Part shown: in pieces, positions 8,779 to 52,600 of the stretch
How the letters are laid out: each line of letters opens with the position of its first letter
Position numbering within the stretch: position 1 is the stretch's first letter
DNA from: Entamoeba invadens IP1
Taxonomy: Eukaryota > Evosea > Mastigamoebida > Endamoebidae
Assembly (NCBI RefSeq): GCF_000330505.1
Contig: NW_004443578.1
Span: 1 to 64,000 of the forward strand
Reading direction: 5' to 3'
DNA length: 64,000 bases
Notes under the pieces: generated by a model
The model's database searches: none
Seen by the model: only the letters and a program-made list of their open reading frames with translations
What the model was told of the DNA's origin: nothing
Program-made: the position numbers and the translations under genes

Positions 8779-9876
8779 TTAATGGAATAAACATCCTTCA
8801 AAACACTCTGCACCCAGTTTCACACTTTTTGAGATATTAAGATAACTCAAACAACGACAGTCTTTAAATGCAAATATTTTAATTTCCTTTAGTTTTTGGT
8901 TTAACGCCACATTACTTAACATTTTACACCCCATAAAAGTTGAATCTCCAATTTCTTCCAACTCTTCATTCATCACTATTTCACTCAATTTATAACAAAA
9001 CGAGAACGCGTAGTTTCCAAGATTTGTAATTCCACATGGAAGTTCGATATTTTCCAAATTGCTACAATTTTGAAACATTCGATTTTTAATAGTCACCAAT
9101 TTTGTCGTTTTAAACAAAACAATTTCGAGTTTGGAACAATCAGAAAATGCGCCTGAATCTATTTCCTCGACATTTTCTAATATTTCAATTTTGCGGAGTG
9201 AGCTACACCCAGAAAAACACGACTCCCCAATATTTATTAAATACTGTGGTAATTCAACTTCACTAAGTTTTGAACACCCACAAAATGTCGTGTTTTCTAG
9301 TTTTGTAATAAACTTGGGTAACACTATTTGTTCAAGTGAGGAACACCAATTGAATGCGTCTTTCCCGATGAAAATGACATTATGGGGTATAGAAATGTTC
9401 GAGATGTTACAACATCCATAAAAGCATGCGGCACCAAGACGAGTTACTGTTGAGCAAAGAGAAACAGATGAAAGAGCAAAACATCCACGAAAACACCCAT
9501 CACTAATTGAAGTCACTAGAGGTGGAATCGAGACAATTTCTTTGGAATAATAACCATTCACTACGTATTCAACAAATGAATATGTAACAGGTTCTGGTAA
9601 TGCGTTTGGGAGACTGGAATGTATAACTTTATAATGGACAATTTTTTGAAAGAAAGCTTTTTCTGGGAAAAAATCATCACAAGGAGAATATAAATGAATT
9701 GTTTCTACATTTGAAAATAACGCTAAATTATTTTCTGAAACAGAAATTGGGTTAAAATGGAAATTGTTTGTAAAGTTATAATACTTTTTACACACCATTT
9801 CCAAATTCAAAAAGTCGTTTGAAGTTTTAAAGTACTTCGCAACAATTAAAATATGAAAACATTCAATATGTATCAT
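8779..9876 (-). CDS. BspA-type leucine-rich-repeat protein
   Basis: An intact 365-residue protein from an ATG at 9876. The first 50 residues (FHILIVAKYFKTSNDFLNLEMVCKKYYN) form the F-box-like helical segment that commonly starts Entamoeba LRR_5 proteins. From about residue 115 onward come roughly ten 23-residue LRR_5 (BspA/TpLRR) repeats of the form CF..C..L..I.LP.....I. There is no signal peptide or membrane span. In Entamoeba this family is very large, and one member has been reported at the cell surface; the role here is unknown, but binding of partners through the LRR solenoid is likely. It is the only LRR gene in the window that reads through without repair. Confidence 0.92.
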   Translation of the reverse strand: MIHIECFHILIVAKYFKTSNDFLNLEMVCKKYYNFTNNFHFNPISVSENNLALFSNVETIHLYSPCDDFFPEKAFFQKIVHYKVIHSSLPNALPEPVTYSFVEYVVNGYYSKEIVSIPPLVTSISDGCFRGCFALSSVSLCSTVTRLGAACFYGCCNISNISIPHNVIFIGKDAFNWCSSLEQIVLPKFITKLENTTFCGCSKLSEVELPQYLINIGESCFSGCSSLRKIEILENVEEIDSGAFSDCSKLEIVLFKTTKLVTIKNRMFQNCSNLENIELPCGITNLGNYAFSFCYKLSEIVMNEELEEIGDSTFMGCKMLSNVALNQKLKEIKIFAFKDCRCLSYLNISKSVKLGAECFEGCLFH

Positions 9877-36124: not shown

Positions 36125-37303
36125 TCAATTAGTTTGAAAAGCATCTCTGAGTAAGTTAAGTACGGATTGAATTTCAGTTTGGGGAGCAGCGATGTTAAAC
36201 CTTCTGAAATATTCGAAACCATTTCCAAATGACTTTCCTTGATTGAAAACTATTCCGCGGTCAGCAAGCCTTTTGTCGATTTCGTCGTTTTCTAAATTGA
36301 GGTTTGAGAAGTCAAGCCAGAGCAAAAATGTAGCGTTTGGAAGAGTCACATGGATGTTTGGGAGATATTGCTGTAAGTAGTGACGAACTAAGAGACCATT
36401 AGAATGAATGTAATTGACACAGGCGAGTCGCCAGTCCTCACACAAACCACTATAAGCAACAGTCATAGCTTCAAAGCCAAATAAGTTTCCAAAGGAGACG
36501 CCAAGACCACAGGCATACTCTGATACCTTTTTATAGAGAACGTTATTAGTACATAGCATGAAGGCTAAGTTCAATCCAGGGATGTTATAAGTCTTACTAG
36601 GAGCTAAGAAAGTGATTGTGATGTCTTCAGCAGTGTCTACAGTGGCCGTGTGAATATGTCGATGGTCGGGAAGAATTATGTCACAATGGATTTCATCAGA
36701 GATTATGACGACATGGTGCCTATGACAGATAGAAACGACCTTTTCGAGCTCTTTTTGTGTAAACACTTTACCCGTCGGGTTGTGTGGAGAACAGAAAATA
36801 TAGACTTTCACATCCTCCGAAACTATTTGCTTCTCTAACTCCTCAAAATCGATGTCCCAAGTGTCGCCGTTGTGGACCATTTTGTTCACGACTACCTTCC
36901 GGTGCGTTTCAGTCACGGACTCGAAGAAGTGCGGATACGACGGAGTGTTGAATAAGACGGCGTCGCCCTCTTTTGTGATCGCGTGAAGGACTAGACCTAT
37001 CCCGGAGACTACACCGGGCGAAAACATGAGACTTTGCTTTAAGCGATCTTCCGTAAAGTCCCAGCCATGTGTAGATAAGTACCGCGTTATGTTTCTATAT
37101 AACTCATTTGGTACACTGGAGTACCCAAAGATCCCCAATTTGCATAAATCAGTCAACGCTTCACGAATCGCAGGAGGGGCTTGGAAGTCCATATCAGCTA
37201 CCCAATGCGGGTGAATAGGAACGGTTTTGTTCACGGGGTATGGCGTGATATTGTATTTGAATGCGTTTGTACCTACACGAGTGGGTGGGTTATCAAAGGA
37301 CAT
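36125..37303 (-). CDS. MalY/PatB-type C-S lyase (PLP aminotransferase fold)
   Basis: A 392-residue PLP enzyme of aminotransferase class I/II, closest in layout to MalY/PatB cystathionine beta-lyases, which cleave cystathionine or cysteine conjugates. Motifs: PIHPHWVADMDFQAPPAIREAL at the start (typical of the MalY group), CSPHNPTGKVF (Asn about 175), ISDEIHCDI (Asp about 203, binds the pyridine ring nitrogen), APSKTYNIPGL (Lys about 237, Schiff base), and RRFNIAAP near the end (the Arg that binds the carboxylate). I start at the ATG at 37303; the codon before it is TTG. No targeting signal is seen, so it is probably cytosolic. In anaerobic protists such enzymes often derive from bacteria; that is likely but not tested here. 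Confidence 0.92.
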   Translation of the reverse strand: MSFDNPPTRVGTNAFKYNITPYPVNKTVPIHPHWVADMDFQAPPAIREALTDLCKLGIFGYSSVPNELYRNITRYLSTHGWDFTEDRLKQSLMFSPGVVSGIGLVLHAITKEGDAVLFNTPSYPHFFESVTETHRKVVVNKMVHNGDTWDIDFEELEKQIVSEDVKVYIFCSPHNPTGKVFTQKELEKVVSICHRHHVVIISDEIHCDIILPDHRHIHTATVDTAEDITITFLAPSKTYNIPGLNLAFMLCTNNVLYKKVSEYACGLGVSFGNLFGFEAMTVAYSGLCEDWRLACVNYIHSNGLLVRHYLQQYLPNIHVTLPNATFLLWLDFSNLNLENDEIDKRLADRGIVFNQGKSFGNGFEYFRRFNIAAPQTEIQSVLNLLRDAFQTN

Positions 37304-37651
37304 CAATTCTTTGTTATAAAAAGTCGGGGCCTATTTATATAGACATGGAATCAATTGAGTATTTTTTTGATGTTTTGCTTGATAAAAAACTGGTCTTTAT
37401 TTGAATTTCGATGGTCGTTTATTTATAGTTTCGTAATAACTCTTTATGGGAAAAGTGTGGCGAGCTTGGGCTTGTTTTCATTTTTCAAAATAAAAATATT
37501 ATTATTTATAATAGTATTATTATTTAAATACTATATTAAAACAGATGTTGGAGGAGGTGCACCAGAAAAAAAATTCTGAAACTTTTCAAGTATAGTATAT
37601 TTTATTAATATTGTGTATTATATAATATTAATAAAGTATTTTTTTATCAGT
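37304..37651. other. Spacer, no credible gene
   Basis: A hydrophobic + frame at 37355-37579 lacks an ATG and any motif. Confidence 0.5.
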
Positions 37652-38358: not shown

Positions 38359-38573
38359 TATATTTTTAATATAGAGTCATTTGCTAAACGTTGTCTGGTC
38401 TGAAACGTTGTCTGCCGATTTTTAGACCATTATAAATGGAATATTTCGGGAATTTTTTTGAAACCCCCAAAATCATTGTTTCAATATTTTTCCCAGTTTT
38501 TTTTCATTTTTACCTAATTCCCGTTTTTTTAAAACAAAAGTCAATTATTTTTTGTCAAAAAGACAACGTTTAT

Positions 38574-41500
38574 CCCTTGTAAGCTTGGTATGCATGACTA
38601 AGTAATGCATTTTTTACAACACAAACGTGTAAATTTTAAATATAAATATGTGACAATTCAATTAATAATAACATTAAAAAATATTTGTTATGGTAAAAAT
38701 ATCATATTTTAATTAATATGTATTTGATTATTTTCCAAACAGAAATGCATTTTTAAGTAAAATAATATTTTTACATTTTAAAAACATAATTATTTTTAAT
38801 AACTATGTAAATTATACTTATCTTTTTAATTGTGGATATCATAAACATAAATTGCTGGTTACACGACAAAAATGAATATAAATTAGAATGTTTTTAGTAA
38901 TTAATCTAAAAACATCAGTTTTCAACTAAAAAACTTGACAATGAATTACGAGGGGATGACTGAAGAAACTATAAACAATTTTATTTCAAATCAAAGCGGT
39001 GATGGTTATTATTATGTTTCATCAGTCAATGCATTTCTTCTAAAGATGAACCATGGTGGACAAAATTTGACATCGATTATCAAAAATAATATTTTGAGTT
39101 TTAGGCTTACTTTTATTCCTATTTTACAATATACACATTTTGTTTTAGCTGTTGTTGACAGTCAAGAAAAAATAGGCATAATATTTAACCCATTGGAAAA
39201 TTATCACGACATTGATTATGTGTCATATTTAAAAGATATATTTAATACTCTCGGTTATAATGAATTTAATATTTACACTGCAACACGTTTTTGTAGACAG
39301 CCGACACAATCTCTTTTATGTGGTGTTTATGTTTGTTATTATGTCACAATGATGATTATGTTCAAAGATTGTAGATCTGTTTTAATGCACAATCCCGATA
39401 ATTTAGAAGTATTCATTAAAACGATTAATACGATTGCATACACAACTTTTATCAACAAAATTCACACAAAATTTAACGGAGAAAATGTTCTATTGGAAGA
39501 TGATAAACATCATAATATAAATACAATTAATTCAATACAACAGATACAATCAATTAATAAAACATGTCAAAGAAAAGGAAAAGGCTCAAATACTATTATT
39601 ACTAATGAGTATATTGAAAAAATGAATTTTCTTGTTGGTATAGAAACAAAATACAAATACAACAAAATTAGTTTAGGAAACGTGTTAAAATGTTATCAAG
39701 TTAGACCAACGAGAAGTGCAGAATATAGTGATAAGATTTTAAAAATGTCATTGGATGAACTTATTGATTTTATTTTTCCACCACGGTTTATTGAAACATT
39801 GTTAACATATACTAATATTCATGGTAAATTTTCCGTTTTTATTTATAACACAACACATTTAACAACGCGGAATTGGAAAGATCTCGACAGAGATGAAATG
39901 TTTGCATTCATTGGTATTTCACTATTGCAAGGTGTTTATAATGATACTAAATTAAGTCAAAGAAATAATTGGTTTGGAAAATTTGCAAGAATAGCATACA
40001 TGTCTGCAATGTCTCTTAGAAGATACAAACAGATTTTGAGAAATCTTCGCTTTGATAATTTATGTAAAAGAAAAGCAGAAGACTTACACGTTTCGCAATA
40101 TTTATTCGAAATGTTTGTAAATGAAAATTACACAAAAAGAAAATATTCAAAAAGTGAAATTGACGAAGAAAGTTTTTCTGATACAAGTTTAAGCACTCAT
40201 TCATCTTCAACTGATTCAACTGGTTCATCTGAAAATGATCAGTATTTATCTAGTGATGATTCAAGTGATTCATACGAAACTCAACATAATAAAACAACAT
40301 CAACAAATAAAAACATCTTAACCAATAATGATGAGTATTTAAGTTTAACGAGTCCAATATATACATATGGATATGATTGGGATAATTATTATAAAATATC
40401 ATTTATAATAGAAACATTTAATGACGTTTTTAAAGAAATGAGTGAACAAATTAAACCATCTTCTGTGTTGTGTGTTGATGAAGACTTATTCAGATATTTT
40501 GGCCATTACCAAAACAAAGTTACAATGCCTTCCAAGCCTTCTAAAAGTGGATTTAAAATATTCATGTTGGTCGATTCAGAAACAAATGCTGTTCTTAATA
40601 CCTTTCTATACAGAGGAAGTAACAACGGAGAAGTTGTCCACCGTTTGGGCGAACGCGTTGTAATTAAATTGATGGAGTCTTTTTGGGGAAGTGAATATAC
40701 TTTATTTACAGATCGTTATTTTACTTCACAAATATTATATGAATATTTGGCAAGCCGAGGCATAAATATAATAGGAACTTTGGATTCAAAAAGGAAGGAA
40801 GTACCAAATGAATTGAAAAGAAAAGGAAAGCGCACAGATGGGTCTTTAGTAACATATCATTGTTCAAATGGGAGTTACTTATCGAGTTTTATTGATAAGA
40901 AAACTAATGTACTATTACTGTCTAGCACTAAACCCAACGAAGTGGATGTAAATACAAGTGAAAAAGTATCAATAAAACCAAATATTAGATCGAAATATTC
41001 TACACAAAGATTACCAAATAGAACCACTGTTAATATAGATTATAACAAATTTATGGGAGGAGTTGATATAGTTGACTCACTTACCAAAAGAACCGATACA
41101 AAGAAAATAACAAGAAGGTGGACTTTAGCTTTGTTTTTCTGTATGTTAAATCTGGCATTTAACAACTTGTACGTTATCATGAAATCTCAAATTATACACA
41201 ACAAAAAACCATCACAAACAAAAATTAACAGAATTGAAATTATGGAAAATGTCGCGATACACTTAATTATTAACAATGTTAAAAAGAGGAAATTGAATCA
41301 TTTAAATCTACGATCCAGAAAAGCTGTTATTTATTTTTTGAAAACATTTACAAAGAATGACATTAAACAACCCATTTTTATTCAAAAAACCGCTTCTGAT
41401 TGTGCGATTTGTAAAGAAGAAATTAAAGGAAAACGAAATTCCGTTAAAAATATTTGTGTGTCATGTGGTAGACATGTTTGTTTTAAACACTCTATCCGAA

Positions 41501-41851
41501 TTTATAAATGTAAAGATTGTATCAATCAATTTGATTTCTAAAACAATCAAAATTGATATTTTTGTGGTAGTAATATATCGGGATATTTGCATCAACAATA
41601 AAAATAAATTTCCTGTTTATACAAATAGTTCTCACGTAGACCTCATTTGGTTATTGGCAAAAATGGCGACTTGTTTAATTTCCCCTATAAAGCCAATCAA
41701 AAATATCTATTTTAATTTGTTTTTATGATTTTTGTTTATAATTGTTATTATTGGTTGCATGGCTTTCTCATGCAGTGTGTTATTTTTTAAAATAATATTT
41801 ACACATTTTTTTCATAAAAAAAAACGTGTAAAACATGCGACCATTCGCGGG
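38574..41851. mobile_element. piggyBac-type transposon with TTAT target duplication
   Basis: The 3278-bp element starts CCCTTGTAAGCTTGGTATGC and ends CATTCGCGGG. The reversed right end, CCCGCGAATGGTCGCATG, matches the left end imperfectly (shared CCC, TGGT and GCATG). TTAT occurs at 38570-38573 and 41852-41855, a variant of the usual TTAA. The ends are fixed independently by the MITE it splits. Just inside each end lies a palindromic block (TTTACA...GTGTAAA). Its single gene is intact, so the copy may still be active. Confidence 0.82.
38941..41541 (+). CDS. Ulp1-like protease / piggyBac transposase fusion protein
   Basis: An uninterrupted 866-residue protein from the ATG at 38941 (a TTG lies two codons before). 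Residues 20-150 resemble a C48/adenain-type cysteine protease: His66 in QYTHFVLAVVDS, Asn83 in IFNPLEN, then CRQPTQSLLCGVYVCYYV with Gln120 and Cys127. Residues 250-410 and 480-760 are a piggyBac (DDE_Tnp_1_7) transposase: FIGISLLQGVYNDTKLSQR, Asp513 in CVDEDLFRYFG, Asp591 in FTDRYFTS, and Asp709 and Asp712 in MGGVDIVD. An acidic Ser-rich linker lies at about 415-460. Residues 821-861 are a Cys/His cross-brace domain (CAIC, CVSCGRHVC, CKDC) like that at the end of piggyBac proteins. The transposase excises and inserts the element; the protease role is unknown. Confidence 0.9.
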   Translation: MNYEGMTEETINNFISNQSGDGYYYVSSVNAFLLKMNHGGQNLTSIIKNNILSFRLTFIPILQYTHFVLAVVDSQEKIGIIFNPLENYHDIDYVSYLKDIFNTLGYNEFNIYTATRFCRQPTQSLLCGVYVCYYVTMMIMFKDCRSVLMHNPDNLEVFIKTINTIAYTTFINKIHTKFNGENVLLEDDKHHNINTINSIQQIQSINKTCQRKGKGSNTIITNEYIEKMNFLVGIETKYKYNKISLGNVLKCYQVRPTRSAEYSDKILKMSLDELIDFIFPPRFIETLLTYTNIHGKFSVFIYNTTHLTTRNWKDLDRDEMFAFIGISLLQGVYNDTKLSQRNNWFGKFARIAYMSAMSLRRYKQILRNLRFDNLCKRKAEDLHVSQYLFEMFVNENYTKRKYSKSEIDEESFSDTSLSTHSSSTDSTGSSENDQYLSSDDSSDSYETQHNKTTSTNKNILTNNDEYLSLTSPIYTYGYDWDNYYKISFIIETFNDVFKEMSEQIKPSSVLCVDEDLFRYFGHYQNKVTMPSKPSKSGFKIFMLVDSETNAVLNTFLYRGSNNGEVVHRLGERVVIKLMESFWGSEYTLFTDRYFTSQILYEYLASRGINIIGTLDSKRKEVPNELKRKGKRTDGSLVTYHCSNGSYLSSFIDKKTNVLLLSSTKPNEVDVNTSEKVSIKPNIRSKYSTQRLPNRTTVNIDYNKFMGGVDIVDSLTKRTDTKKITRRWTLALFFCMLNLAFNNLYVIMKSQIIHNKKPSQTKINRIEIMENVAIHLIINNVKKRKLNHLNLRSRKAVIYFLKTFTKNDIKQPIFIQKTASDCAICKEEIKGKRNSVKNICVSCGRHVCFKHSIRIYKCKDCINQFDF

Positions 41852-41867
41852 TTATCGACTGACTCTA

Positions 41868-42273
41868 GTGTAATATGTAATTAAAAACTCTATAAACATA
41901 TTATGAGATTTAAACATCAAACTCCAAAAATTTTTGGGCTAATTTTGGTATTAGTTCGAAATTATAATAAAAAACTAATAGTTATTGTAAAATCTATTAT
42001 TATAAAATTGGACAAAAATAACAAAATTATTTTGTTTTATAAACTCCATTTTGACAAATTCAAATATCATTATTTTTTTTAATTAAAAACAAAGTTATTT
42101 TTATACCATAATAATCATACAAAATAACGACAAAAACATATAAATTTAATTATTAAATAAAATGAAATGATAAAAAAATCTAAAAAATTAACTTATCAAA
42201 AAGATTATCGAGATTGCATCAACTCAAATTATTTGAAGATAGAAAGAATCTCAAATTTGACTAAACACATCAA
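41868..42273. other. AT-rich spacer
   Basis: No gene; presumably contains the promoter of the coiled-coil gene. Confidence 0.5.
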
Positions 42274-43329
42274 ATGTCAGATTCCGAAACGTTCAAACAT
42301 TTAAACGCAAAAGTTTACAAGGAACAAGCCATTTGGATGTTGAATGCTATGTGGCCTTCAACCAAATCGGCCAAAGCTGAAGAGATCTGGAAGTTTGTTC
42401 AGATCTTTTCCGATTTAGATCAAGAGAACCACGCTTCCGGGTGTTGTCTTGATGAGTTGAATATGCATCGAGTCTTTGAGAAATTGAATTCCCAAAAGAC
42501 GGTTCAAGAGATGCGAAGTCAAATGAAGAAGGCGGGGCTTGAGAATTTCAAGAAGTTTGGACTTCTTCACTTCTTAGTCTTTTACTACGACCAAGACTGG
42601 AAGAAGATTACCAACGCTCCACAAGGCGATAACTCCGAACAACTCGAAAACGCAAAGAAATTATTAGAGGCCGTCTCTAAGCAACTTGAAGAGTGTCAAA
42701 AGAAAGCCGAGGCGGCTAAAAAGTCTGCCGAGGAAGCCGATAAAAGACAAAAAGAAGCACAAAAGGCTGAAGACGAGGTGACTAAAGCACTCGATGAAGT
42801 CAAGTCACAAGAAGACGCAAAAAACAAGAAGCGCGAACAACTCCAGAAGAAGATCGAGACAGCGGGATTGGTAGCTAAGAATGCTGCTATTCAAGAATTG
42901 GCTAAATTGGACAACGAGGATGACCTCCCAATGAGAAGAGCCAAGACAACTTTAGAGGCGGCCCAGCGAAAGGCGGCAAAAGCTGGTTTGTTCTTATTTA
43001 ATTCTTTTTGAATAAATAAATAACTATAACTATACTATTATTAGATAGTACATTAGAACTATATTTAATAATTAATATTTATTATTATAATACACTGACA
43101 ATTAGTAAAAATAGCTACAGAAGCAAAAGAAAAGGCTGACAGCGATGCGGCTGAGGCAGACAAAGCTGTCGAAGAGACACAAAAGAAGGTCGAAGAGGCT
43201 GAAAAGTTCTTGAAAGAGCAACAAGAGTCTGCTGGTGGAAATGGACAGGGCACTATGTGGTGGATGCAGAGAGAGCTCGATGAGAAAAAGAAGTACATGC
43301 CAATGAGAAAGGGTGGTGTAGCGAAGTAA
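42274..43329 (+). CDS. Coiled-coil protein, two exons
   Basis: Exon 1 is 42274-42985 and exon 2 is 43106-43329, giving 311 residues. Residues 1-115 are a globular, helical domain (QAIWMLNAMWPSTKSAKAEE; SDLDQENHASGCCLDELNMH) that looks distantly EF-hand-like but lacks full loops. Residues 120-280 form a long Ala/Lys/Glu-rich coiled coil, and the C-terminus is GTMWWMQRELDEKKKYMPMR followed by KGGVAK. The donor GTTTGT at 42986 and acceptor TAG at 43105 join in frame. A second TAG at 43114 also keeps frame, removing three residues. Without splicing the frame ends falsely at 43011. It is probably a cytoskeletal or scaffold protein; I cannot name it. Confidence 0.82.
42986..43105 (+). other. Intron, GTTTGT...TAG, alternative acceptor 9 nt downstream
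   Basis: The intron is 120 nt and AT-rich. ATTAG at 43105 and AATAG at 43114 both leave the same reading frame, so two isoforms differing by three residues are possible. Confidence 0.85.
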
Positions 43330-49691: not shown

Positions 49692-52600
49692 TTAGATGAA
49701 AGTCTTAAGGACAGCACCGAGTTTGAGGGAGTTAAGGATGTCTTGGTAAAGCTTTTCAAATGCCGACGAGACAAAAGCGAGAGGATTTGAAGCGACGTTA
49801 GCGACAAATCTGCAGACAGCCTTTGATATTTCTTGTTGTTTAGGAGTGTCTTGGTCTTTATTTTTCTCGTCGAGAGATGAGCTGATGAGTTTACGGAGGT
49901 CTGGGATGATTTCATCGATATTTTCGATGAGTTCGTCTGAGTTGTTGTTAGCCATTTTGAGTAACAAATTGAAGCAGAGTAATTTGACGTCGTGGTCATT
50001 GTTTTGTTCTCCGATAGATTTTACGATAGCGCAGATGATATTTTTAAAGTTAAGTTCAGTGATGTAGTTATCGATAAGGACGGAGAGGCATTCCATGACT
50101 GCTTTACGAGCTTCGAGTCCCAAATCGGTGATGTGGACGACGATAGAGAATTTTGCGACGGAGACGTAGTTTTTGTCGACGGACATTTGTGGGACGAGTT
50201 GTTTTTGAATAGTTTGTAAGTAAGGGAAGATTTCCTTTTGAGCGTGAATGAGGAGATATGAAATGACTGTGAAGAGTGCGCCTTTGACTGCGGGGATTTT
50301 GTCACCGAGACGTGAGACGATGATTGGGATGAGTGGGATGAACATTTTCGGGTCACAGTTGGCCATACAATTTTTGATTGAGCCGATAAGTGCGCCGTTG
50401 CCGTTCTTGTCCATCAACGCGGGAATGTAAAACGCTTTGATGTATTTCTCCAAGTCGAAAGCAAGTAATTTTCCATAACACTCACTCATGACATTCGTTG
50501 AGACTTCGTCGACTTTGATTTTGACAAGACGTTTCATGATGTCTTCGACGGTGTTTGCGTTGATATATTTGAGTGCCTCTTTCAGTGCGTTCAACAACGA
50601 GAATGTTGTTTTCTTCTCGATGCGTGTGAGTAAGAGTGGAATGATGTCTGGAATACTTCCAAGTGCAAGTGCAGCGGCTTGTCTGACAGCGTCACTCTCG
50701 ATTTCAGTTGCATCAAAGAGAATATCTCTGACTTTGTCACCGTTGATCTTTTGTTGTGTCAATAAAGCGCTCGATGCGTAGATAAGAACAATTGCTTTGT
50801 AGTAGTCTGCAGATGGTTCGACTGATTTCTTGAGTTTGTTGACTGCCGTGTTGACTGCATTAACAACGACATCTGCGTCCGGCGATGTTGCTGCATACAA
50901 CATTCCAACCAAATAAAGATTTGCGCGTGAATAGACGTGGTTTTGGATGTCAAGAATTGCAGCGGAGATCTCCTTCTTGTCATAGACCGCAAGTGCCGAT
51001 GCAAGTTCCATGAAACATGGTGCCATTGCTTCACGTGCGTTGTTCCCCTTTGCAATGTCAACGACTTTTCTAAAGACGTTCTGTGTGATGTTCTTGTACA
51101 TTTCTTTATATTGTGCATAAGCTGCGATGATATGAACTGCGTCTTCTATTATAGTGATGTCGTTGTCATAAATGAAGTTTGAGATTGGTGTCAGTGTTGT
51201 TTCCATAGTAGCTTTCGACAAGACAAGTTTAGCGTCCAATATTGATTTGCAGACTTTGAGTGCTGTTGATTTGACTTGTCGTGTAGCCTGTTGTGTTTGT
51301 TTAGTTGTTTCAACAAAAAGGGTGTCCCAGTTCTTCAAGCGTTCAAGTACTTCTGCTGTTGCAACGTCAAGAATAACTACAAGTGCTGTTGCATTTAAGA
51401 ATGTGTTGCTGTACAATGCAGTCACTTCGCCAAGAGTCTCACGCAATTCATTGTCACTCATCGCTTTATTAAATACTTTCAACAATGATCCAAGACAGAA
51501 CACGGCTTCTTCTTTGACTTCATGGTCTTTCTCACTCTTAATTAGTGACACAAGTGCGGCCTTGACACTCCCAACATTCAAAGTGGTGTACATCTCAGCA
51601 CTCTTCGCATAACGAAGAAGAACACTTTCTGTCTTCAACACTTCAATTTCAACACGGAAGTTCTTTGAATCAAACAGTGAGACGAGAACGGGTGATATAG
51701 CTGCACTGAATGAATCAACGCCATTGATCTTGACGATGTTGCGAAGACACTCACACATCGTACTTAACAATTCAACATGACTGTTTGCACTGTTCAAGAG
51801 TGTTACAATCACACCTTCAAGTGTATTAACATGTGGGACAAGTGCGGCACCATCAAAGACAGCGATCTCTTTCACTATGTTGAAACACTCCATCTTGCTC
51901 TTCTCAGTCGACTTCTTTCCTTTCAAAATGCTCTCAATCTGTGGAATTGCACCACTCACACTTTCTCTAACTTTCTCAACACACTGACACACACCACTGT
52001 TGACCGTTTTTAACACAAGACTGTACACCCCAAGCACTATGTTCAACACAATCTCAACGGATTCTTTGAAGCGCTTTAACACAACACTCAGTGCTTCACT
52101 CACTACTTCACAAAACATGTCACTTCGTTCTTTCACAAGACTAACAAGACAATCACCTGATAGTTTTCTCAATTTCCATGTGATGTCGTCTTCATCTTCA
52201 AACACTTCCTCGTCGTCTTCTTCCTCTTCCATTGCATTGGCGTCGTCTTCTTCTTCATCATCATCAAATCNNNNNNNNNNNNNNNNNNNNNNNNNNNNNN
52301 NNNNNNNNNNNNNNNNNNNNNNNNNNNNNNNNNNNNNNNNNNNNNNNNNNNNNNNNNNNNNNNNNNNNNNTCTAAAGCAACATCTCTGTTCACATCCAAC
52401 GCCTTCTTCGCATCTAACAGCATCGTCTTTAACTTCTCGACTAAACTCTTCACAGCACTCACTGATGTCACAAATGGCATAAAAGAACTCAAACACTTGA
52501 TCGTGATGTCTTTCACGTCATTCGCTTCATCAGTCAATAACGTCAACAAGCCACTCATGATTTCTCGTTGCTCGTTATCTATAAACTTCTTCCCTTTCAT

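Follow-up and report, generated by a model that had tools for sequence, protein, structure and literature searches.

A piggyBac transposon with a predicted Ulp1/C48-like protease domain at the N-terminus of its transposase

Introduction

The piggyBac transposases are among the best-studied eukaryotic transposases. Ulp1-type protease domains have been known from several transposon families for over ten years. Ulp1 or OTU domains occur in Ginger1 and Ulp1 in Mutator, and the ubiquitin pathway has been proposed, as yet without proof, to act in transposition (PMC2836005). Here we describe an element within a 64,000-nucleotide stretch of DNA (the window, C43:1-64000; C-numbers are contigs of a 35-Mb genome in 233 contigs) in which a Ulp1/C48-like cysteine protease domain is predicted to be fused to the N-terminus of a piggyBac transposase.

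Among the closest described systems, Ginger1 likewise carries an Ulp1 (PF02902) or OTU domain inside its transposase, but that transposase is Gypsy-integrase-like and the protease is C-terminal (PMC2836005). A C48 domain is also borne by DNA transposons with other recombinases, namely the Ulp1-containing Mutator elements (PMC2836005) and CryptonF and CryptonS, some CryptonS elements having the domain in an additional protein (PMC3212892). Polintons encode an Ulp1-like protease and Teratorn a piggyBac transposase, but the protease is described there for Polintons and their virus relatives, not as a fusion to a piggyBac transposase (PMC10175614, PMC5601938). A further system is leapFrog, a piggyBac-superfamily element listed for Entamoeba invadens in PMC2657916, which cites Pritham 2005 for Entamoeba DNA transposons. 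As a piggyBac of an Entamoeba genome leapFrog resembles our element, a closer likeness being presumed; it differs in that no protease is mentioned, the terms "protease" and "Ulp1" occurring 0 times in the main text of that paper (PMC2657916). The original prediction knew of no piggyBac-C48 fusion, and none was found in the literature searched, with subscription journals mostly outside the search and Repbase not covered. A C48 domain on a transposon is already known, and this case stands out by the kind of transposase involved, by the N-terminal place of the protease and by a parallel fusion in the same genome.

Results

A single open frame joins the two domains

The predicted 866-residue open frame was confirmed as an uninterrupted reading frame from ATG to stop, without internal stops, the frame opening just 12 codons 5' of the ATG (Table 1). 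All eight residues in question (H66, N83, Q120 and C127 of the protease; D513, D591, D709 and D712 of the transposase) lay at the positions originally proposed. The transposase part matched PF13843 (DDE_Tnp_1_7) at 170.6 bits (7.7e-50), and the Asp513-Asp591 step of 78, followed by the Asp709/Asp712 DxxD, bore out the proposed piggyBac identity. The Cys/His tail was also present, as C821-x2-C824-x14-C839-x2-C842-x4-C847-x2-H850-x6-C857-x2-C860. Judged by this D...D...DxxD arrangement and its C-terminal tail, a putative zinc finger, the element belongs to the piggyBac superfamily. A 123-aa frame (41357-41728, forward strand) overlaps the 3' part of the transposase frame in another frame and shows no sign of being a gene.

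The N-terminal domain resembles CE-clan cysteine proteases

A hidden Markov model (HMM) built from seven other C48 domains of the same genome scored 25.5 bits on the N-terminal 209 aa. None of 5,000 composition shuffles reached this value (4,966 scored, best 11.8), and three transposase segments scored below 0. With hhalign, H66, N83, Q120 and C127 aligned with the H, D, Q and C of the same seven domains, and a profile of the A1 protease alignment reached SENPs first in the PDB. The top-ranked structural matches of the predicted protease domain were bacterial and cellular proteins, and among the 50 matches listed none lay outside the CE clan, although others may exist. A single-sequence phmmer search of the PDB gave nothing but fructose-bisphosphatase, at E 0.44 or worse, which we took as noise, while PHROGs returned two weak matches to families whose function is unknown. 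Profile and model evidence together indicate that the N-terminal domain has a CE-clan fold, and its residues follow the order His, Asp/Asn/Glu, Gln, Cys.

The steps of 17 (His to Asn) and 7 (Gln to Cys), from which a resemblance to adenain had been read, are present, but they are not specific to adenain; 17 is also the ungapped His-to-Asp step of SENP1 in the profile-to-PDB alignment, and the Gln-to-Cys step of 7 becomes 6 in the divergent relative on C206. The adenain family itself (PF00770, C5) had no match in the genome, but had none in 14 control genomes either.

The fusion is shared by divergent relatives in the same genome

A search with residues 1-209 gave 11 matches at nine loci, comprising the window, six close loci (C171, C152, C225, C103, C39, C130) and two divergent ones (C206, C90). 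All nine also matched the transposase part, and the two-domain order looked for across the genome was recovered at the six close loci and in both divergent relatives, whose transposases are 42-45% identical. The C206 relative is 33% identical to the window protein over residues 9-862 of the latter. Its 524-aa frame holds the protease first (H61, N78, Q114, C120) and then the transposase (PF13843, 6.7e-9), and the remainder of the element continues in other frames, with a Cys/His tail similar to that of the window protein. The first 213 aa of this frame matched PF02902 (9.4e-4) and PF22102 (ElaD/SseL-like, 3.6e-3), both below their cut-offs; the PF02902 score was 19.5 bits with hmmscan and 21.6 in the genome search, where neighbours in frame were included. 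The C90 relative retains the H, N, Q and C in pieces, with the N in a second frame. Domain order and catalytic residues are retained at about 30% identity.

A tree built from 17 piggyBac loci (403 columns) split the window, C206, C90 and C227 from the other 13 loci with support of 99. The nearest of the other loci include C201 (a 579-aa frame, no protease), C23, C12, C76 and C231. No protease was seen in the 5' sequence fetched for C227, the sister of C90, which may be truncated, nor was a match found in the sequence fetched for C58, which lies outside the tree. Of 19 piggyBac loci scanned with the protease profile, only C206 and C90 matched, the scan including L006 and L008 with more than 1,100 N each. 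From these sequence comparisons, the protease was most simply gained by the piggyBac transposase one time, rather than joined to it by accident. The genome holds at least 153 PF13843 matches in 35 Mb, fragments of one copy being counted apart, and several of the families are without a protease.

A third piggyBac-C48 lineage was considered on C158 and rejected, since the C48 frames there end about 665 bases before the first piggyBac match. At this locus (L073, C158:108800-112400) degenerate C48 frames (683-1337) lie directly 3' of an unassigned frame at 404-682 and stop 465 bases short of the following same-strand frame, with a broken piggyBac further on.

A second transposase family carries a C48 domain in reverse order

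Unexpectedly, C48 domains also occurred in the same open frame as a DDE_Tnp_4 transposase, which we take to be PIF/Harbinger-like. One on C186 (L082, C186:465700-467800) has an 879-aa open frame with DDE_Tnp_4 (1.2e-13) and C48 (9.6e-7) in the 660 aa fetched. Another on C114 (L083, C114:328950-331900) has a 918-aa open frame with DDE_Tnp_4 (1.5e-6) and a C48 match of 24.6 bits in the genome search that did not reappear at E<=1 in a scan of the full 918 aa. The two proteins are 29% identical over residues 69-885, and further copies of the fusion exist in the genome. A broken relative on C152 (L072) has a DDE_Tnp_4 frame at 388-849 and a C48 frame at 1000-1959 on the same strand. These proteins resemble that of the window in joining a transposase and a C48 domain within one open frame, but the transposase family is unrelated and the domain order is reversed. 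Because C48 is C-terminal in them, their fusion is taken as an event separate from that in piggyBac.

Element limits, target site and recent movement

A DNA search with 38380-41900 as query found sequence 94-100% identical to the element, in full or in part, on C152, C39, C130, C103, C171, C136 and C225, and two further loci, C136:17140 and C130:66318, with a left end only. Wherever ends were readable, similarity among copies broke off at about 38571 and 41854; it ended within a few bases of the element termini in C225, C152, C171, C39, C130, C103, C136 and the left end at C136:17140. The element limits first proposed fit exactly, with TTAT immediately outside both ends, and C225 is flanked on both sides by TTAG. 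In a survey of 20 ends in 10 loci, 14 were readable by a match to the terminal 26 bases. Half of these (7) had TTAN, including TTAA in three, and 13 had a central TA. The window copy is inserted in a dispersed repeat, and the empty site ...TTTATCGA... was present in 7 of 7 paralogues with the search string (8 fetched), with a short internal repeat extending the empty-site paralogues about 18 bases leftward beyond the window copy. The TTAT and TTAG duplications and the empty sites point to cut-and-paste movement into a target site that is piggyBac-like but relaxed, rather than strict TTAA.

Aligned bases were identical to the window element in C136 (1,068 of 1,068) and nearly so in C225 (1,544 of 1,546). 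As these two copies are practically identical to that of the window but lie in other flanks, the family has moved recently. C225 contains a gap of 100 N, and C136 is N over its 5' portion.

The dispersed repeat itself (38380-38571, about 192 bases) has at least 30 further matches at 88-98% identity, with the element at its right side, and contains an internal direct repeat, GACAACGTTT.

Searches beyond the genome

Against 5.8 billion proteins, residues 1-215 gave nothing at E<=1, residues 225-866 nothing at E<=0.001 and the C206 protease nothing at E<=1. Since the transposase part was also without a relative, the collection seems to have few eukaryotic piggyBacs within reach, or none, and this negative is uninformative on other protists. 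No match was found in phages, and 79 pattern matches in viral contigs yielded no confirmed relative.

Discussion

The reading we somewhat favor is that of a cut-and-paste piggyBac transposon in which a protease of the Ulp1/SENP/NEDP1 kind, a putative deconjugase acting at transposition sites, was added to the N-terminus of the transposase, in the simplest case a single time. The N-terminal domain would actively deconjugate ubiquitin-like modifiers by means of a Cys-His-Asn triad. The transposase would bring it to the transposon ends and the target site, where its substrates may be the transposase itself or proteins of chromatin, silencing or repair. Freeing these of SUMO- or ubiquitin-like tags, a plausible role that the original prediction had suggested for target chromatin, would ease transposition. 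Rad60-SLD (SUMO/ubiquitin-like) matches at 21 places in the genome indicate that possible targets exist. SUMOylation has been linked to ciliate DNA elimination, in which domesticated piggyBac transposases cut (review, PMC12203969). That a C48-type protease domain is fused to a piggyBac transposase is upheld by fold, profile, catalytic residues, the single open frame and retention in divergent relatives.

Several observations weigh against this reading. The PF02902 (Peptidase_C48) score on residues 1-209 was 20.0 bits, below the curated cut-off of 20.7; the family was unlisted when the whole 866 aa were scanned, and the window copy was absent from the 23 PF02902 matches at E<=1 in a six-frame genome search. 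The predicted structure of the protease domain is of low confidence (mean predicted local distance difference test, pLDDT, of 60; core about 67-81), and the main piece of C90 matched no Pfam family. A complete open frame is present in the window copy alone, the other copies having stops, gaps or contig ends. Target-site duplications agree in two of the four copies with both ends readable and disagree in C152 and C39; they also disagree between C130 and the lone left end at C130:66318, which may be two parts of a single copy. The ratio of non-synonymous to synonymous substitution (dN/dS) among copies, over 11 non-independent pairs, ranged from 0.24 to 1.04 in the protease and from 0.39 to 1.10 in the transposase. 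It was below 1 for the protease in 10 of the 11 pairs, but the changes are few and the pairs share ancestry, so that continuing selection is unproven, and dN/dS is weak evidence because copies decay after insertion.

These dN/dS values, not clearly low, also agree with an unlikely alternative in which the CE-clan fold cleaves too weakly or not at all and replaces the disordered N-terminal region of piggyBac as a module that binds ubiquitin-like proteins or partners. The Asn in place of Asp at the acid position fits such a module, as does the finding that transposition is impaired when the ordinary piggyBac N-terminus, which is disordered, is deleted (PMC9499001). Yet His, Asn, Gln and Cys are all retained across three divergent lineages, and pS273R of African swine fever virus is described as using a Cys-His-Asn triad in catalysis. 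Viral CE-clan proteases mature polyproteins, and with both parts in one polypeptide and a poorly conserved linker, the protease could instead free itself from the transposase or mature it, as the original prediction had suggested among other roles. We consider this adenain-like self-processing quite improbable and found no support for it, as the linker of the window protein has neither a diglycine nor an adenain-like site (no GG, [MILV]xGG or [MILV]xGxG); moreover, the Gln-to-Cys step can depart from that of adenain, and the protease lies at the opposite end in the DDE_Tnp_4 fusions.

That many copies are broken, and that C48 frames elsewhere (C158) are found beside transposases through chance or nesting, would suit a protease without function in the transposon, either a mere passenger or the product of accidental read-through from one gene into its neighbor. 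We regard this as very improbable. Both parts occur together in seven close loci, the window included, and in two divergent relatives, so that an accident of read-through is rejected. Retention of the order and catalytic residues at the family level lowers the standing of a passenger, protease-less piggyBac relatives in the genome indicate that loss was possible, and the presence in this genome of a second fusion with the domains the other way round makes it less likely still. A separate matter, compatible with a deconjugase at transposition sites, is whether the domain is of cellular Ulp/SENP descent or derives instead from the protease of a Polinton, of an adenovirus-like source or of a large DNA virus. 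The latter seems rather unlikely given that bacterial and cellular structures and SENPs ranked first, that no viral contig relative was confirmed and that PF00770 was unmatched, although scores cannot settle descent and the control genomes lacked PF00770 too.

A broader, tentative possibility is that piggyBac and DDE_Tnp_4, two unrelated transposase families, each fused a protease that would deconjugate ubiquitin-like modifiers and, together with Ginger1, Mutator and Crypton, represent a recurrent transposase-tethered device for counter-silencing or repair steering, the element bringing its own deSUMOylase to the cut site. If one polypeptide does have both activities, the role of tag removal in transposition becomes testable through one cysteine.

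Sequence features and neighboring genes

Table 1. Coordinates of the element and its features in the window.
Feature	Position	Strand	Basis
Whole element, 3,278 bp, termini CCCTTG...CGCGGG	38574..41851	+	Similarity limits among copies and flanking duplications
Target-site duplication, left, TTAT	38570..38573	+	Flanks; empty site TTTATCGACTGACTC in paralogous repeats
Target-site duplication, right, TTAT	41852..41855	+	Flanks
Possible subterminal inverted repeat, left arm (18/23 paired; AT-rich, may be chance)	38610..38632	+	Local alignment of the two ends
Possible subterminal inverted repeat, right arm	41799..41821	-	Local alignment of the two ends
Single open reading frame, 866 aa, protease-transposase fusion	38941..41541	+	Uninterrupted frame, ATG to stop
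Predicted CE-clan (Ulp1/C48-like) cysteine protease domain, residues ~1-165	38941..39435	+	PF02902 6.5e-4, profile to PDB, model and structural matches, hhalign, shuffles
Predicted catalytic residues His66; Asn83; Gln120; Cys127	39136-39138; 39187-39189; 39298-39300; 39319-39321	+	
Linker, residues ~166-217, little conserved	39436..39591	+	Alignment of protease relatives
piggyBac transposase domain DDE_Tnp_1_7, matched stretches 39772-40128 and 40381-41166	39772..41166	+	PF13843
Transposase residues Asp513; Asp591; Asp709; Asp712	40477-40479; 40711-40713; 41065-41067; 41074-41076	+	
C-terminal Cys/His tail CxxC-x14-CxxC-x4-C-x2-H-x6-CxxC, residues 821-860	41398..41523	+	Residue check

Other genes were observed in the window. 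A reverse-strand gene at 36125-37306 encodes a cysteine-S-conjugate beta-lyase/aminotransferase of the MalY/PatB type (best PDB match 6.3e-77); by its sequence it is bacterial-looking, and lateral transfer is possible. An F-actin bundling C-terminal domain is encoded at 42274-43011 on the forward strand, and BspA-type leucine-rich repeats (8779-9876) and a CAND1-like protein (49692-52496) on the reverse strand, three neighbors that we take to fit an amoeba such as Entamoeba.
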